From a virus, in the IMG/VR virus record IMGVR_UViG_3300036791_000143, positions 1 to 20,129 of that record: a stretch of DNA of 20,129 nt. One strand, written 5' to 3'. Under the pieces are notes generated by a model. The model was not told where the DNA came from and did not search any database. It saw only the letters and a program-made list of their open reading frames with translations. The translations under genes were made by a program, and so were the position numbers. Positions 7,721 through 14,627 of this stretch are shown here, in pieces (positions within the stretch are counted from its first letter, which is position 1; each line of letters opens with the position of its first letter).

Positions 7721-7818
7721 CCAGCCGGCGGGTCGTGCTGGCCGTGTGGCTGGCCATCGCCGTCGCCTCGACGCTGCTGGCCTTCACCCTCGGGATCGCC
7801 CTGGCCTTGTGGGCCTAA
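7717..7818 (+). CDS. Small single-span membrane protein of the lysis cassette
   Basis: A short frame of about 27-33 residues after the holin-like gene, ending at TAA 7816-7818. It encodes TSRRVVLAVWLAIAV followed by more hydrophobic residues to ALALWA, that is, a basic patch and one membrane span. The start is unclear: a CTG at 7717 overlaps the holin stop (CTGA), and a GTG at 7735 is the first standard codon. It could be an antiholin, a second holin or a spanin-like partner. Its stop overlaps the stop of the convergent integrase gene. Confidence 0.45.
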   Translation: MTSRRVVLAVWLAIAVASTLLAFTLGIALALWA

Positions 7819-8636
7819 GCCGACCGGTTGAGGGCGGCTCGCAGGGCGTCGTCGTCGCCGGCGCGGAGGTACCGGTCGGTGGTGGCCACGTTGCGATGCC
7901 CGAGGAGGCGCTGCACCATCTTCACGTCGCGGCTCTCGTCGTAGAGGTTGGTGGCGGCCGTGTGCCGCAGGGCGTGGGCGGACACCCCGTCATACGCCTC
8001 GGCCTTCAAGCCGGCGGCGGCCAGCCAGCCCGACACCCGCCGCGACAACCGGTTCGCCGACCAGCCGACGACCGGCCCGGCGCTGCGGGCCCCGACGTGG
8101 GCGGCCAGCAGCCCGGCGACGTCGTCGGCGACGGGCAGGCGGCGATGGTCGTCGTTCTTGCCCCACACGTCGAGGTGACTGCCGTCCCAGTCGGCGACGG
8201 CCAGCCGGGACACTTCCACGCAGCGCAACCCCTGGCGGGCCATGAGCGCCACGATCAGCCTGGCTTGGGTGTCGGGCAGGACGAGGCGCAGCCGGGCCAT
8301 CTGGGCGGCGCTCAGCGCCCGGTCCCGGCCTCTCGGCTCGTGCACCCGCCCGGCGGAGCGGCACGGGTCGACGTCGAGGAGGTCCCATTCGATCGCCCAC
8401 CGGCAGAACACCTTGACGGTGGACAGGTACGCCCGGCGGCTGGCGGGCCGCTGGCCGCCGACGAGGGCCTGCCAGGCGCGGATGTGGTCACGGTCGAGAT
8501 CGGCGATGTCGACGCCTTCGCAGATGGCGGCGAGGCGGCCGAGCCGCCAGCCGAGCTGACGGGCGGATCGGGCGCCGATCTCGCCCCGATCTTGGCGGTC
8601 GTTGACGTAGGTGGCGACGGCTTCGGACACCAGCAT
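7815..8636 (-). CDS. int: Tyrosine-family site-specific integrase
   Basis: A 273-residue recombinase for phage integration and excision. The start at 8636 is chosen because GGGAGGAACC lies just upstream on the minus strand; the frame remains open for 108 more codons, but that part is low complexity. Residues 1-90 look like a core-binding SAM-like domain (AVATYVNDRQ...AYLSTVKVFCRWAIEWDLL). The catalytic domain follows with all expected residues: R138 (GLRCVEV), K160 (WGKND), H221 and R224 (HALRHT), H247 (LLGHRN) and Y256 (TTDRYL). It is shorter than lambda-type integrases and seems to lack an N-terminal arm-binding domain, so it resembles XerC/D-sized enzymes. It is convergent with the lysis cassette, with stops overlapping. 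Confidence 0.95.
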   Translation of the reverse strand: MLVSEAVATYVNDRQDRGEIGARSARQLGWRLGRLAAICEGVDIADLDRDHIRAWQALVGGQRPASRRAYLSTVKVFCRWAIEWDLLDVDPCRSAGRVHEPRGRDRALSAAQMARLRLVLPDTQARLIVALMARQGLRCVEVSRLAVADWDGSHLDVWGKNDDHRRLPVADDVAGLLAAHVGARSAGPVVGWSANRLSRRVSGWLAAAGLKAEAYDGVSAHALRHTAATNLYDESRDVKMVQRLLGHRNVATTDRYLRAGDDDALRAALNRSA

Positions 8637-8828
8637 GTGGTTCCTCCCGAGCTTGGGCCGCCACCCGGCGGCGGATGCTAGGTCGCGTCTACCGTTCGGT
8701 AATTGCCCCCGCTCACGGCCGCTAGAGACTGTCGCAGCCGGGGCGTACCGTGTCGCGGTAGGTCGAGCGGGGATCGCTCCCGAACGTGACGCGTGCGCCT
8801 CGGCGCCCGAACGTAAGGGAGACCCCCA
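8637..8828. other. Non-coding stretch upstream of int with clustered inverted and direct repeats (possible attP/regulatory region)
   Basis: This lies between the divergent int and the small gene at 8829. It holds three small inverted repeats: TACCG/CGGTA at 8690-8701 with a 2-base loop, the same arms again at 8746-8760 with a 5-base loop, and GAGCG/CGCTC at 8765-8779. It also holds a direct repeat CCCGAACGT at 8779-8787 and 8806-8814. Because the int stop overlaps the lysis gene, there is no room for an attachment site on that side, so attP would more likely lie here. No tRNA-like 3' end is visible. Ribosome sites for int (minus) and the 8829 gene (plus) are at its two ends. Confidence 0.35.
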
Positions 8829-9068
8829 GTGCCACGAGATCGAAGGGGAAACCAGGCGCGGCGAGAGGTGAAACGCCGCATCGAGCTGCTCGACGCCGGC
8901 TTCGCCTTGCCGCGCGGACCGGACGTCCGGTCGCTGCTGCGACTCCTGGCCCTGATCCACGACGACGCGACGGTCACCGTCGAGGACCTCCTCGACCGGG
9001 TCGAGCTACACGCGAAGCACACCACGGCGACCCGACTGGTCGATCCGGAGAGATGGCGGTCATGGTGA
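8829..9068 (+). CDS. Small protein of unknown function
   Basis: A 79-residue product from a GTG start with AAGGGAG about seven bases upstream. The N-terminus is very basic (MPRDRRGNQARREVKRR). A helical middle follows with PDVRSLLRLLALIHDDATVTVEDLLDRVELHAKH. The ending is DPERWRSW. The basic start could touch nucleic acid, but no known motif is seen. It overlaps the following HNH gene by a few bases, so the two are probably made together. It is divergent from int and transcribed towards the repressor. Confidence 0.55.
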   Translation: MPRDRRGNQARREVKRRIELLDAGFALPRGPDVRSLLRLLALIHDDATVTVEDLLDRVELHAKHTTATRLVDPERWRSW

Positions 9069-9403
9069 TCCAACTGCAGCCGCATCTGTTCGACCCCGCC
9101 CCGTTCGACGAGTCGAGTGTCGGCCAACTGCTCCGGATAACCCGAAGACTCCAGTACCGCACCCAATACCTGCAGTCTTGGCAGTGGGCTCGCCGGCGGA
9201 TCGAGTTCCTGGACCGTCACCCTGACTGCGAGGTGTGCGGCCGGCGCGCGACCGACGTCCACCACACGAGCTACGACCATGTTGGCGACGAGTCCGACGA
9301 CGAGCTGATGCCGTTATGCCGGCGCCATCATGACGAGGCGCACCCTCGGACCGGCCGGCGCCGGGATCGTCGCCACCCCGGTCCGTCCGGGCCCGGACGG
9401 TAG
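9062..9403 (+). CDS. HNH endonuclease-like protein
   Basis: A 113-residue protein with the layout of phage HNH proteins. An N-terminal part is followed by a helix YLQSWQWARRRIEFLDR, then the zinc/nuclease core: CEVC (C56, C59), DVHHTSYDHVGDE with the HH at 67-68, and LMPLCRRHHDEAH with C86 and H89/H90. The Cys pair, the central HH and the C-x-x-x-H end are all present. Three in-frame starts are possible (ATG 9053, ATG 9062, GTG 9065). ATG 9062 is preferred because GGAG at 9047-9050 is well spaced. It lies away from the terminase genes, so it may be a stand-alone nicking or homing-type enzyme. Its stop is three bases from the stop of the convergent repressor. Confidence 0.75.
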   Translation: MVIQLQPHLFDPAPFDESSVGQLLRITRRLQYRTQYLQSWQWARRRIEFLDRHPDCEVCGRRATDVHHTSYDHVGDESDDELMPLCRRHHDEAHPRTGRRRDRRHPGPSGPGR

Positions 9404-9406
9404 TGC

Positions 9407-9691
9407 TCATGCCGCCACCCCGGGATACCATCTGGTAGACGGCACCGGTAGCCGACCGCCGGTCATGAGCCACACGTAGTCGACGGCGGTCCGCTCGGCG
9501 ATCTGGCGGCAGACGAGCGGATAGTCACGCGGCCGGTTACGGCCGGCCTCCCAGTTACGCCACTTCTGATCGTCGAGGCCGCAGTGCTCGGCGGTGCGCT
9601 TGACGTTCCAGCCGCCGAGATGCTGGCGGATCAGGGCGAGGCGGGCGCCGAAGGTGTCCTCAGGAATCCAGGGTTTGACAGGTCGAGCCAT
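9407..9691 (-). CDS. Probable immunity repressor (small HTH protein)
   Basis: A 94-residue DNA-binding protein, the only leftward gene besides int. A helix-turn-helix region runs from about residue 12 to 70: FGARLALIRQHLGGWNV, TAEHCGLDDQKWRNWEAG with the W-x-x-WE-x-G turn found in XRE-type repressors, and a following helix VCRQIAERTAVDYVWLM. The start at 9691 (MARPVKPW) is chosen; a longer frame exists but would run into the operator-like DNA upstream. There is no strong Shine-Dalgarno, and a -10-like TAGAAT lies only 8 bases upstream, so a leaderless mRNA is likely, as for lambda cI from PRM. It is divergent from a MerR-like gene, the normal arrangement of a lysogeny switch. Confidence 0.75.
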   Translation of the reverse strand: MARPVKPWIPEDTFGARLALIRQHLGGWNVKRTAEHCGLDDQKWRNWEAGRNRPRDYPLVCRQIAERTAVDYVWLMTGGRLPVPSTRWYPGVAA

Positions 9692-9699
9692 CACCCCAC

Positions 9700-9729
9700 A
9701 TTCTACCACATTATCCACAGTGTCCACAA
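9700..9729 (-). promoter_or_regulatory. Predicted leftward promoter of the repressor gene
   Basis: On the minus strand there is TTGTGG at 9724-9729, an 18-base spacer, and TAGAAT at 9700-9705 (five of six bases of TATAAT). Transcription would start about at the repressor ATG (9691) or the GTG just before it. The promoter overlaps the tandem CCACA/DnaA-box-like sites, so binding there would affect it. Confidence 0.45.
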
Positions 9730-9764
9730 GAGGGTGTGGATGATCGTCGATACGGGGTGGATTA
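9702..9764. repeat. Cluster of DnaA-box-like 9-mers in the immunity control region
   Basis: Compared with the consensus TT(A/G)TCCACA: 9711-9719 TTATCCACA is a perfect match on plus. 9720-9728 GTGTCCACA has one mismatch and directly abuts it. 9735-9743 is TCATCCACA on minus with one mismatch. 9756-9764 on minus matches seven of nine, and 9702-9710 six of nine. The CCACA cores on plus are spaced 10, 9 and 9 bases, close to a helical turn. An AT-richer stretch (9778-9812) lies beside them. These may be DnaA sites, or repressor operators that happen to share the core. Confidence 0.5.
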
Positions 9765-9771
9765 GCGGGTG

Positions 9772-9802
9772 TTGCGGTCATTAGTTAGGAATAGCATAGA
9801 CT
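9772..9802 (+). promoter_or_regulatory. Predicted rightward early promoter
   Basis: TTGCGG at 9772-9777 and TAGACT at 9797-9802 with a 19-base spacer; an alternative -10 is TAGCAT at 9792-9797. The ATG of the excisionase-like gene at 9813 is 11 bases after the -10 and has no ribosome site, so the message would have almost no leader. This would drive the long overlapped early operon. Confidence 0.4.
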
Positions 9803-9812
9803 TGTGAACCTT

Positions 9813-9995
9813 ATGGCTGATGAACTGTTGACCGCCGGCGAGGCGGCCGTGCTGTTGAACCTGAGCGACGAGACCTTGAGGCGTTGGGCCAAGACCGGGC
9901 GGGTCCGGTATGTGCGCCTGCCGTCGGATCAGATCCGCTTCCGGCGCCGGGACATCCTGGCGATCCTCAAGCCGGTCGAGCCGACGGCGTCATGA
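9813..9995 (+). CDS. MerR-like small HTH protein: excisionase or Cro-like regulator
   Basis: A 60-residue protein with a winged-helix fold of the excisionase (HTH_17/MerR N-terminal) family: LLTAGEAAVLLNLSDETLRRWAKTGRV for the HTH (residues about 5-31), then RLPSDQIRFRRRDILAIL for the wing and last helix. Proteins of this type either bend attachment-site DNA as a recombination directionality factor or regulate early transcription. Being the first rightward gene opposite the repressor suits both, and it is the only excisionase candidate in the window. ATG 9813 is used; GTG 9804 in frame is possible. It has no clear ribosome site, which fits a leaderless transcript. The stop overlaps the next start (ATGA). 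Confidence 0.8.
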   Translation: MADELLTAGEAAVLLNLSDETLRRWAKTGRVRYVRLPSDQIRFRRRDILAILKPVEPTAS

Positions 9996-11809: not shown

Positions 11810-11985
11810 CCCGCCGGGAGCTGCTCGACCGGCTGGAGATGTTGAACGCCGCCTTGGACCGGCATCGGGCCGACCCGCTGGTCACGCTGGCGGAGGGGAA
11901 GGCGATGCGGGTGTCGGCGCTGCGGCAAGCGGTGTACGCCACCGGCGACCAGGTGGCGAAGCTGGCCGAGGCGGAGGCGTGGTGA
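11806..11985 (+). CDS. Small helical protein of unknown function
   Basis: A 59-residue product with a GTG start overlapping the recT stop (GTGA). It is all-helical: RRELLDRLEMLNAALDRHRADPLVTLAEGKAMRVSALRQAVYATGDQVAKLAEAEAW, shown here only in its key parts RRELLDRLEMLNAALD and ALRQAVYATGDQVAKL. The heptad-like Leu/Ala spacing suggests a coiled coil or a small dimer. The open frame upstream belongs to the recT shadow. Function unknown; possibly a partner of RecT. Confidence 0.55.
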   Translation: MTRRELLDRLEMLNAALDRHRADPLVTLAEGKAMRVSALRQAVYATGDQVAKLAEAEAW

Positions 11986-12131
11986 TGAAGATCACCGAGG
12001 CTTACGCCGCGCTGGGCGATCCGGATGGGACGTCATCAGACGACCTATCAGCGGTCGACGAGGGCGATCGCGGCGGACATGAAAGTCTCCGAGAGCACGG
12101 CCCGCCGGGCGCTCCGCAGGCTTGTGGATAA
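11985..12131 (+). CDS. Short ORF or displaced N-terminus of the winged-helix gene
   Basis: An ATG overlapping the previous stop (TGATGA) opens a frame of 48 codons. Its first residues, MKITEAYAALGDPDG, look like real protein, while the remainder (SSDDLSAVDEGDRGG...) is the out-of-frame reading of the winged-helix gene. It may be the original start of the gene now read from 12025, separated by a frameshift, or a tiny coupling ORF. See the finding on this frame change. Confidence 0.25.
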   Translation: MKITEAYAALGDPDGTSSDDLSAVDEGDRGGHESLREHGPPGAPQACG

Positions 12132-12411
12132 GGGCAAGGTGATATCCACCACACTGCCGGGTCAAGCCCCCATCTGGTCGCTGGCACCCCTGTCAGAGTT
12201 ACAGGGGGGGGCTGTCACAGTGACCGTAACCCCTGTCACCCAGGGGGGGACTAAAGGCAGTTATAGGCAGGTAAACCATGGTGGCGAAGCTCGCCGCAGC
12301 AAGGCTGCAGCTTCGCCACCTGTGGAGAACCTGCGCCCGCACACGAGCGACGGCGTCGACTTCGCCCCCGGCTCGGGTCGCCTGCCGAACTGGTCGAAAG
12401 GTGAGACCTGA
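12025..12411 (+). CDS. Winged-helix DNA-binding protein, possible replication initiator-like
   Basis: A 128-residue product whose N-terminus is a clear winged-helix/HTH: YQRSTRAIAADMKVSES, TARRALRRLVDKGKV and the wing VISTTLPGQAPIWSL (residues about 8-53). The rest (from about 60) is Gly/Ser/Ala/Thr-rich and probably unstructured, ending NWSKGET. The ATG at 12025 has only a weak ribosome site. Within its coding DNA lie DnaA-box-like sites, three inverted repeats, an AT-rich stretch and a long hairpin. In lambdoid phages the replication origin lies inside the gene for the initiator O, between a winged-helix DNA-binding domain and a partner-binding tail, so this could be an analogue (inference). 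Alternatively it is a transcription regulator. Confidence 0.6.
   Translation: MGRHQTTYQRSTRAIAADMKVSESTARRALRRLVDKGKVISTTLPGQAPIWSLAPLSELQGGAVTVTVTPVTQGGTKGSYRQVNHGGEARRSKAAASPPVENLRPHTSDGVDFAPGSGRLPNWSKGET
12123..12329. other. Origin-like repeat region inside the winged-helix gene
   Basis: In order: a perfect DnaA box on minus (TGTGGATAA, 12123-12131); a weaker one on plus (12142-12150, seven of nine); an inverted repeat CCCCTGT/ACAGGGG with a 7-base loop (12187-12207); a dyad GTCAC-A-GTGAC (12214-12224); an inverted repeat CCCCTG/CAGGGG (12230-12246); a locally AT-rich part with AGGCAG repeated at 10-base spacing (12255-12270); the long hairpin at 12280-12320; and TGTGGAGAA, eight of nine to a DnaA box on minus (12321-12329). 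Direct copies of CCCCTGTCA occur at 12187 and 12230. The combination resembles a theta origin. Confidence 0.4.
12280..12320. repeat. Long perfect hairpin / cruciform
   Basis: GGTGGCGAAGC at 12280-12290 pairs perfectly with GCTTCGCCACC at 12310-12320. Inside the 19-base loop, GCAGC (12296-12300) pairs with GCTGC (12304-12308) across a 3-base turn. The whole forms a stem with one small asymmetric internal loop. It is within coding sequence and not followed by a T run, so it is not a standard terminator. It could act as a single-strand initiation or primase site, or a protein target. Confidence 0.6.
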
Positions 12412-12929: not shown

Positions 12930-13520
12930 ATGCCCGAAATCCAGTTGAAGCGGTTGGCCCGCTCGATGGCCGAGATACCGATCGAGGGGACCGCGCCGCT
13001 CATCCAGAACCGCTTCGCCGAGAAGGCGAAGCAGATGATGCTTGACCGTCAGCAGGGTAACGCCATCGAACGCGAGCCGAAGAACCCCGACCAGCTGTTC
13101 CACGACGCCCAATACCGCCTGCCCGGCGACCGGTACGGCCACCCAGCCGTCGCCTTCAAATCGGCGATCGTCGGCGGCGCCCGCTTCTACAAAGGGTCGA
13201 AGATCACCATGACCGGCCTGAAGGTCGCCCTGTTCGTCAAAGGCGAAGGCTCCGACATGCTCGTCGAGATCGACGGGATCCCGAAGATGCGCGAAGACCC
13301 CGTCCGAAACGCCAACGGCGTCGCCGACCTGCGCTACCGGCCCGTCTACTGGCCGTGGACCGCGACCCTGCAGGTCGTGTACATCCGCTCCCAATTCAGC
13401 CTCGACTCGCTCATCGCCCTCGTCGACGCCGGCGGGAATGTCGGCGTCGGCGAATGGCGCCCCGAGTTCGGCACCTTCCAAGTCGCCGACGACGCCGACG
13501 CCAAGGAGATCCAGCTGTGA
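12930..13520 (+). CDS. Conserved phage protein of unknown function, RecT-region
   Basis: A 196-residue alpha/beta protein with a good ribosome site (AAAGAGAG upstream). Recognisable conserved-looking blocks are IPIEGTAPLIQNRFAEKAK near the start, AVAFKSAIVGGARF in the middle, VEIDGIPKMREDPVRNANGVADLRYRP (the D-x-x-R and RYRP parts stand out), and a C-terminal GNVGVGEWRPEFGTF. I recall similar proteins in early regions of phages and prophages without an assigned role. The Gly-rich end loop and alternating strands recall RRM/RAMP-like folds, so a nucleic-acid-binding role is possible, but this is only a guess. It overlaps the next gene by GTGA and is probably co-expressed with it. Confidence 0.65.
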   Translation: MPEIQLKRLARSMAEIPIEGTAPLIQNRFAEKAKQMMLDRQQGNAIEREPKNPDQLFHDAQYRLPGDRYGHPAVAFKSAIVGGARFYKGSKITMTGLKVALFVKGEGSDMLVEIDGIPKMREDPVRNANGVADLRYRPVYWPWTATLQVVYIRSQFSLDSLIALVDAGGNVGVGEWRPEFGTFQVADDADAKEIQL

Positions 13521-14005: not shown

Positions 14006-14321
14006 CCCCAAACATGACACGGCACGGCACGGCAGGCGTGGTCCGGCTAGGCACGTCGAGGCGCCGGCAGGGCAAGGCTGGTCGCGGTCCGGTCTGGCAG
14101 GTCCCGGCCTGGCCCGTCAGGGCTTCGGTGCGGTGCGGCTTAGGCCCGGCAACGCACGGCAGGCACGGTCAGGCAAGGTACGACACGGTCGGGCACGTCG
14201 GGGTTCGGCGAATGGCACGGCAGGCCCGGTCCGGTACGGTCCGGTGTGGCCGGGCACGGCATCGGCGAGGGTGTGGCCGGGTATGGCACGGCACGGCAGG
14301 CATGGCCGTACCATCGTGGTG
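14006..14321. repeat. Gene-free G-rich tract of degenerate pentamers with 11 bp iterated motif
   Basis: There is no convincing gene in these 316 bases; the open frames on both strands are low-complexity Arg/Gly/Pro. The plus strand has GG about every five bases (units like CACGG, CAGGN, TCCGG). GCACGGCAGGC occurs four times: 14027-14037, 14154-14164, 14215-14225 and 14291-14301. A longer 17-base copy, GGCACGGCACGGCAGGC, sits at both ends (14021-14037 and 14285-14301). GGTCCGG occurs at 14040, 14086, 14228 and 14238. The tract lies between the early operon and the packaging genes, so it may hold terminase binding or cos sites, an origin, or a G-rich structure. Confidence 0.7.
14309..14314 (+). 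promoter_or_regulatory. -10-like element for a leaderless HNH message
   Basis: TACCAT (TANNNT pattern) at 14309-14314 ends seven bases before the ATG of the HNH gene, which lacks a ribosome site. This is the typical spacing of leaderless actinobacterial genes. No clear -35 is seen in the repeat tract upstream. Confidence 0.4.
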
Positions 14322-14627
14322 ATGGCTGGCCATGACCCACGCCTCAAGACGCTGGCATGGCAGCGTCTGCGCCTGCTGATCCTGGACCGAGATGGGTGGC
14401 AGTGTCAGGTGCATGGCTCCATGTGCACACACCACGCCTCTGTCGTTGATCACATCACCGCCCGTGCTGATGGTGGCGACTGCTGGGATCCGGCCAACCT
14501 GCGGGCCGCGTGCGTGCAGTGCAACAGTCGGGGCGGCTCGACCAGGACGAACGCACGCACGCACGCGCAGGCCACCCGGTGGGGGTACCGGCCGGGGGGG
14601 CTGGCGGACCCCGACACCCGGTTCTGA
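14322..14627 (+). CDS. HNH endonuclease of the packaging module
   Basis: A 101-residue HNH nuclease. The core reads RDGWQCQVHGSMC (C28, C35), VVDHITARADGG with D43-H44, WDPANLRAACVQCNSRGG with N59, and the CxxC at C64/C67, with the typical CNxxG end. HNH proteins encoded next to the terminase are known to be needed for cos cleavage in HK97-like phages, working with the large terminase; this position directly before the small terminase gene fits. The ATG at 14322 is chosen because upstream codons run through the repeat tract as Arg/Gly-rich shadow. The C-terminus contains the Thr/Ala/His repeat ARTHAQATRW from an acgc-repeat DNA stretch. Confidence 0.85.
   Translation: MAGHDPRLKTLAWQRLRLLILDRDGWQCQVHGSMCTHHASVVDHITARADGGDCWDPANLRAACVQCNSRGGSTRTNARTHAQATRWGYRPGGLADPDTRF

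Follow-up and report, generated by a model that had tools for sequence, protein, structure and literature searches.

A 9-bp direct-repeat array resembling DnaA boxes is a probable excisionase operator on the repressor promoter of a temperate actinophage

The stretch of DNA considered here, referred to as the window, is a complete virus record of 20,129 bases, possibly a fragment, that belongs to a temperate actinophage and has a GC content of 70.3%. Along with an integrase gene, the window contains rep, encoding an immunity repressor of the helix-turn-helix (HTH) type, and the divergently oriented xis, encoding an excisionase (Table 1). The remaining genes include tail genes, genes for VRR-NUC, RecT and a further HTH protein, and genes for terminase, portal and protease, with the structural names being taken from reading of the ORFs. 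An HNH-nuclease-like ORF (9055-9403, plus strand) lies between the integrase gene and rep, on the strand opposite to both, while a low-complexity stretch at 14010-14330, ahead of an HNH gene, consists of GCACGGTCAG-like tandem repeats with units of about 10 bp, similar DNA being present in the related loci L004 and L005.

In an earlier note on this DNA, the region between rep and xis was described as carrying a cluster of DnaA-box-like sequences at 9702-9764, next to an AT-richer stretch and placed exactly between the divergent genes. The AT-richness was confirmed, with the GC content of the gap (9692-9812) being 48.8%. The cluster itself was also confirmed, comprising a perfect TTATCCACA box, GTGTCCACA (9720-9728, plus strand), which abuts this box end to end and differs by one mismatch from TTGTCCACA and by two from TTATCCACA, and TCATCCACA, one mismatch from a DnaA box. 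The row is, however, longer than described, with CCACA cores at 9696, 9706, 9715 and 9724 and an inverted core at 9735, such that the first lies to the left of the interval originally given. Moreover, while the cluster does lie between the two genes, it is not central but rather covers the predicted rep promoter and stops 5 bp before the rep start codon. Read on the repressor strand, it becomes a TGTGG direct-repeat array with 9/9/10-bp spacing, in the order TCATCCACA-CCCTCT-TGTGGACAC-TGTGGATAA-TGTGGTAGAA-TGTGGGGTG-ATG. A scan for strict sigma-70 consensus sequences detected neither the rep nor the xis promoter.

Table 1. Positions of genes, repeat units and predicted elements at the immunity switch of the window.
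Feature	Position	Strand	Basis or remark
Integrase	7815-8960	-	
Immunity repressor rep, HTH protein, 94 aa, C-terminus VAA	9407..9691, ATG at 9691	-	PHROG 2328 transcriptional repressor, E 4e-17; relatives annotated as immunity repressor
Proposed attP core ATACCATCTGGTAGAC, last rep codons	~9421..9440 (region 9400-9450)		Palindromic core common to L004, L005, L019, L324
Unit 4, core TGTGG, reaching from the end of the -10 into the start region; 4 mismatches from DnaA box	9696..9700	-	
Predicted -10 box TAGAAT of rep promoter, 18 bp from -35	9700..9705	-	By eye
Unit 3, core TGTGG, just upstream of -10; 3 mismatches from DnaA box	9706..9710	-	
Unit 2, TGTGGATAA (on plus strand the perfect DnaA-like TTATCCACA), in promoter spacer	9711..9719	-	
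Unit 1, TGTGG (9728-9724), with predicted -35 box TTGTGG of rep promoter	9724..9729	-	Sequence; -37 from rep ATG; same place as first TGCRCG unit of relatives
Inverted unit, TGTGGATGA (minus strand TCATCCACA), separated by 6 bp from the TCCACA core of unit 1	9735..9743	+	11-bp core-to-core geometry also in L019, L099, L175
Predicted xis early promoter TTGCGG, 17 bp, CATAGA	9772..9800	+	By eye
Excisionase xis, HTH_17/BldC-like, 60 aa, proposed array ligand	9813..9995, ATG at 9813	+	Pfam HTH_17, E 1e-10; PHROG excisionase; best PDB matches BldC 6ama/6amk

Such a cluster would hardly be expected by chance. Across the whole window, five matches to the DnaA box with at most one mismatch were found, as compared to 0.65 expected, a number reached in none of 100 shuffles. 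Likewise, a CCACA triple at 9/10-bp spacing was seen in none of 2000 Markov-simulated windows.

A search based on a repressor alignment yielded 63 viral loci, and 52 non-redundant rep/xis pairs, Brujita included, were analyzed. In the 50 bp upstream of the rep start, these 52 loci gave a lag-9 autocorrelation of z = 10.3, as compared to z = 1.8 in a control segment. The commonest form of the array was TTGCGCGATATGCGCGA, the core of which, TGCRCGA, is unlike any DnaA box, and tandem TGCRCG pairs were found near the -35 in ~20 loci, which were otherwise almost free of such pairs. DnaA boxes with at most one mismatch were seen among the 52 switches only in the window and L019, apart from a single isolated box in L027 and another in L029. 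The layout of the family fits a promoter, assigned by eye, in which unit 1 is the -35 (TTGTGG or TTGCGC) and an 18-bp spacer separates it from a TA-type -10. L004 and L005 are the closest relatives as judged by the gene at 12930 (~90% identity), yet their immunity region differs from that of the window, and so they offer no direct comparison at the switch. Bacterial genomes, searched with the repressor, yielded no relative. Scanning very large collections for the array pattern returned mostly unrelated contigs, with only L099, L117 (identical to L019) and L175 carrying switch genes, and a Xis-based search added L322, which has no recognizable repressor alongside, and L324.

Within the subclade that carries TGTGG, L019 (repressor 63% identical to that of the window), L175 and L099 present the array geometry of the window with different spacers, and L324 and L027 present a weaker version, all units of which are at least two mismatches from a DnaA box. 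The perfect box corresponds to unit 2 in the window, to the inverted unit in L019, and to both in L099 and L175. In units 3 and 4 of the subclade, TGTGG is mostly kept on the helical repeat despite at least three mismatches from the DnaA box. The DnaA 9-mer is not the constant part of these arrays, with TT(A/G)TCCACA not being conserved at homologous positions; rather, boxes shift between units and are absent in L324, L027 and nearly all other relatives. In L099, where no intact rep gene is found, xis and the array are still present. At positions 194-725 of this locus, the opening codons of rep appear joined to the C-terminal part of the integrase, with rep apparently having been deleted; the junction looks like that of a natural non-lysogenizing phage or else an assembly junction.

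The similarity of arrays was next compared with the similarity of the two proteins encoded to either side. At fixed Rep, array similarity followed that of the Xis HTH (partial r 0.557; 0 of 1000 permutations, in a pairwise analysis that ignores phylogeny), while at fixed Xis, the value for Rep was 0.001, phylogeny again being ignored. Leaving out the TGTGG clade gave 0.606 for Xis and -0.109 for Rep. Similarly, locus pairs with unlike Rep and like Xis had more similar arrays than did the reverse (0.68 vs. 0.56; Mann-Whitney p = 0.003). Flanking control segments showed no covariation of the Xis type, although the array adjoins rep, and the next segment from the array in the direction of xis tracked Rep and not Xis. 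By eye, the early -35 of relatives contains a GTGTCAAGCAC-like dyad that is absent from the window, where a clear Rep dyad was sought and not found; this dyad region gave a mixed result, covarying about equally with Xis (0.35) and with Rep (0.34).

When all columns of the Xis alignment were scanned, residue 20 was the best predictor of the array core in both comparisons. This residue is Glu in 7 of 7 TGTGG loci and Ser, Gly, Asn or Pro in 28 of 28 TGCRCG loci (Fisher 1.5e-7, phylogeny ignored). Xis scores above the Pfam cut-off as a HTH_17/MerR-like winged HTH protein and, at 60 residues, is devoid of a dimerization coiled coil. Its best PDB matches are BldC-DNA structures (E 7.5e-10), Pukovnik Xis (4j2n) is a further match, and alignment places Xis Glu20 on BldC Lys26 and Arg24 on Arg30. 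These BldC residues are the two that contact bases in the major groove, with BldC protomers binding one per 9-bp direct repeat, head to tail (PMC5859096). BldC Arg30 reads a pyrimidine-G step; TG is the part common to the TGTGG and TGCRCG cores and may thus reflect recognition of the Arg30 type.

On the basis of these comparisons, the cluster is probably an operator at which Xis silences the lysogenic promoter of rep. Early in infection or upon induction, Xis protomers would assemble on the array, one per unit and head to tail, forming a filament as BldC does, with each unit, read as TGTGGATAA on the rep strand, corresponding to about one helical turn (9-10 bp). Such a row would cover the -35, the spacer, the -10 and the start region, turning off the rep promoter and keeping the phage lytic; the same protein would presumably also serve in excision. 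Glu20, at a recognition-helix position, would go with TGTGGA(T), whereas in most relatives, which have Ser20, TGCRCGA takes its place. The cluster would then look like DnaA boxes because the Glu20 Xis of this subclade goes with TGTGGA(T), the core of which reads TCCACA on the other strand. A simple head-to-tail row does not account for the inverted fifth unit.

The proposed arrangement has precedents. In phages 186 and P2, the respective excisionases, Apl and Cox, also act as repressors of the lysogenic promoter, over which lie the direct repeats that they bind; these sites are separate from the operators of the repressor, and the excisionase genes come first in the early operon (PMC7498355). 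The repeats of the window are likewise about one helical turn apart over what is, by eye, the lysogenic promoter. Yet, the promoters are divergent here and face to face there, the period is 9 bp as opposed to 10-11 bp, the protein belongs to the HTH_17/BldC type, and no matching att array was found. Indeed, although an excisionase would be expected to bind there also, neither the window nor L019 showed a tandem TGTGG/CCACA close to the att core, and the switch is therefore described as working like Apl/Cox and is not filed as a member of that group. Streptomyces BldC shares the HTH_17/MerR-like fold, as predicted by sequence, and 9-bp direct-repeat sites (PMC5859096), but it regulates development in the host and has AT-rich sites (AATTNNNNC), whereas the sites of the phage switches read TGTGGATAA or TGCRCGA. 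The switches of the mycobacteriophages BPs and Brujita also present divergent rep and xis/cro-like genes, an apparent att core within rep and an AA repressor tail, whereas the operators published for BPs are palindromes bound by Rep (PMC4557955). In the literature searched, no excisionase array is described at the repressor promoter of switches of this type. Finally, Pseudomonas phage Pf4 has divergent genes encoding the excisionase XisF4 and the repressor Pf4r, with mutual repression (PMC7379572); Pf4 is a filamentous phage, and the likeness noted here concerns gene arrangement and mutual repression.

At the 3' end of rep, the palindromic core ATACCATYTGGTAGA(C) is shared with L004, L005, L019 and L324 despite their different repressors, and L004 contains two copies (1712-1760 and 2890-2944) that flank an apparent DNA methylase gene. 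The repressor C-termini read VAA (window, L004, L324), LAA (L019), AAA (L005) and IAA (L175) and, as far as sequence can tell, form an ssrA-like tail. Repressor tails of the AA type occur in integration-dependent immunity (PMC4557955; PMC9934374). Together, these features make the core at the end of rep a candidate attP and point to integration-dependent immunity. No attB or integrated copy was found, and hence integration-dependent immunity stays a strong suggestion.

Elsewhere in the window, the HTH gene at 12025-12411 (HTH_36-like) contains repeats of ACCCCTGTCA at 12186 and 12229 together with an inverted copy, and A-richer DNA thereafter. A second perfect TTATCCACA (12123-12131, minus strand) lies within this gene. 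The counterpart HTH genes of L019 (285-401) and L005 (6638-6833) each contain their own cluster of direct and inverted repeats, one perfect TTATCCACA and A-richer DNA thereafter. The repeats and perfect box of the window (12123-12275) are a better candidate for a replication origin than is the switch cluster, in a layout that we take to resemble lambda O/ori. The HTH gene seemingly starts at 12025 without its first helix; an overlapping ORF in another frame (11985-12131) ends at the TAA of TGTGGATAA, and a frameshift here is possible.

Such lone boxes in the HTH genes of the window, L019 and L005 imply that these phages may use DnaA, and bear upon the proposal of the earlier note that host DnaA begins phage replication at the switch or couples the switch to host growth. 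This reading draws further on the AT-richer gap and on the at least one perfect TTATCCACA in all four of the closest arrays (window, L019, L099 and L175). It is nonetheless quite improbable. The 52 related switches keep the element with a different, almost never DnaA-like, core; every unit of L324 and L027 is more than one mismatch away, units 3-4 do not qualify as DnaA boxes, the perfect box falls on different units in different members, and the better origin candidate lies at 12.12-12.27 kb. No reports of DnaA boxes in the operators of temperate phages were retrieved from the literature. The earlier note had itself held that free variation of the boxes among related phages, with another motif being kept, would count against DnaA, and the outcome is close to this, with boxes varying and the array being retained. 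Even so, host DnaA may recognize the perfect box. Were the subclade Xis operator to have converged on the DnaA box, with DnaA also acting on the rep promoter and sharing the site with Xis, lysogeny would be coupled to chromosome replication, although this, too, is quite improbable.

The alternative offered in the earlier note, namely an operator with a similar core, was right in kind, although the likely ligand is Xis and not the repressor. That Rep would bind the array and autoregulate its own promoter is suggested by the position of the array directly upstream of rep, by the second operator that BPs Rep has near its own gene (PMC4557955), and by the very similar Rep HTH of the window, L019, L175 and L324. 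Still, this is unlikely given that array similarity is independent of Rep once Xis is accounted for, that loci such as L052, L080, L081 and Brujita share one TGCRCG array despite very different Rep HTHs, and that the characterized BPs Rep sites are palindromes and not 9-bp direct repeats (PMC4557955). As for a chance accumulation of CCACA words, short words do recur, and the three-core pattern matches many unrelated contigs in very large collections, yet the failure of simulated windows to produce such a triple, the array geometry kept in related switches and the lag-9 signal of the family make this exceedingly improbable.

If assignment of the array to Xis is right, then Xis itself, turning off the rep promoter via a 9-bp array, would fill the vacant 'Cro' position in a large family of actinophage switches, with many members of the family apparently using integration-dependent immunity. 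Recognition in the family would, moreover, follow a rule of one residue and one core, with Glu20 going with TGTGG and Ser20 with TGCRCG. It would also serve as a warning that clusters of DnaA boxes in phage switches can be look-alikes that stem from the recognition code of another protein.
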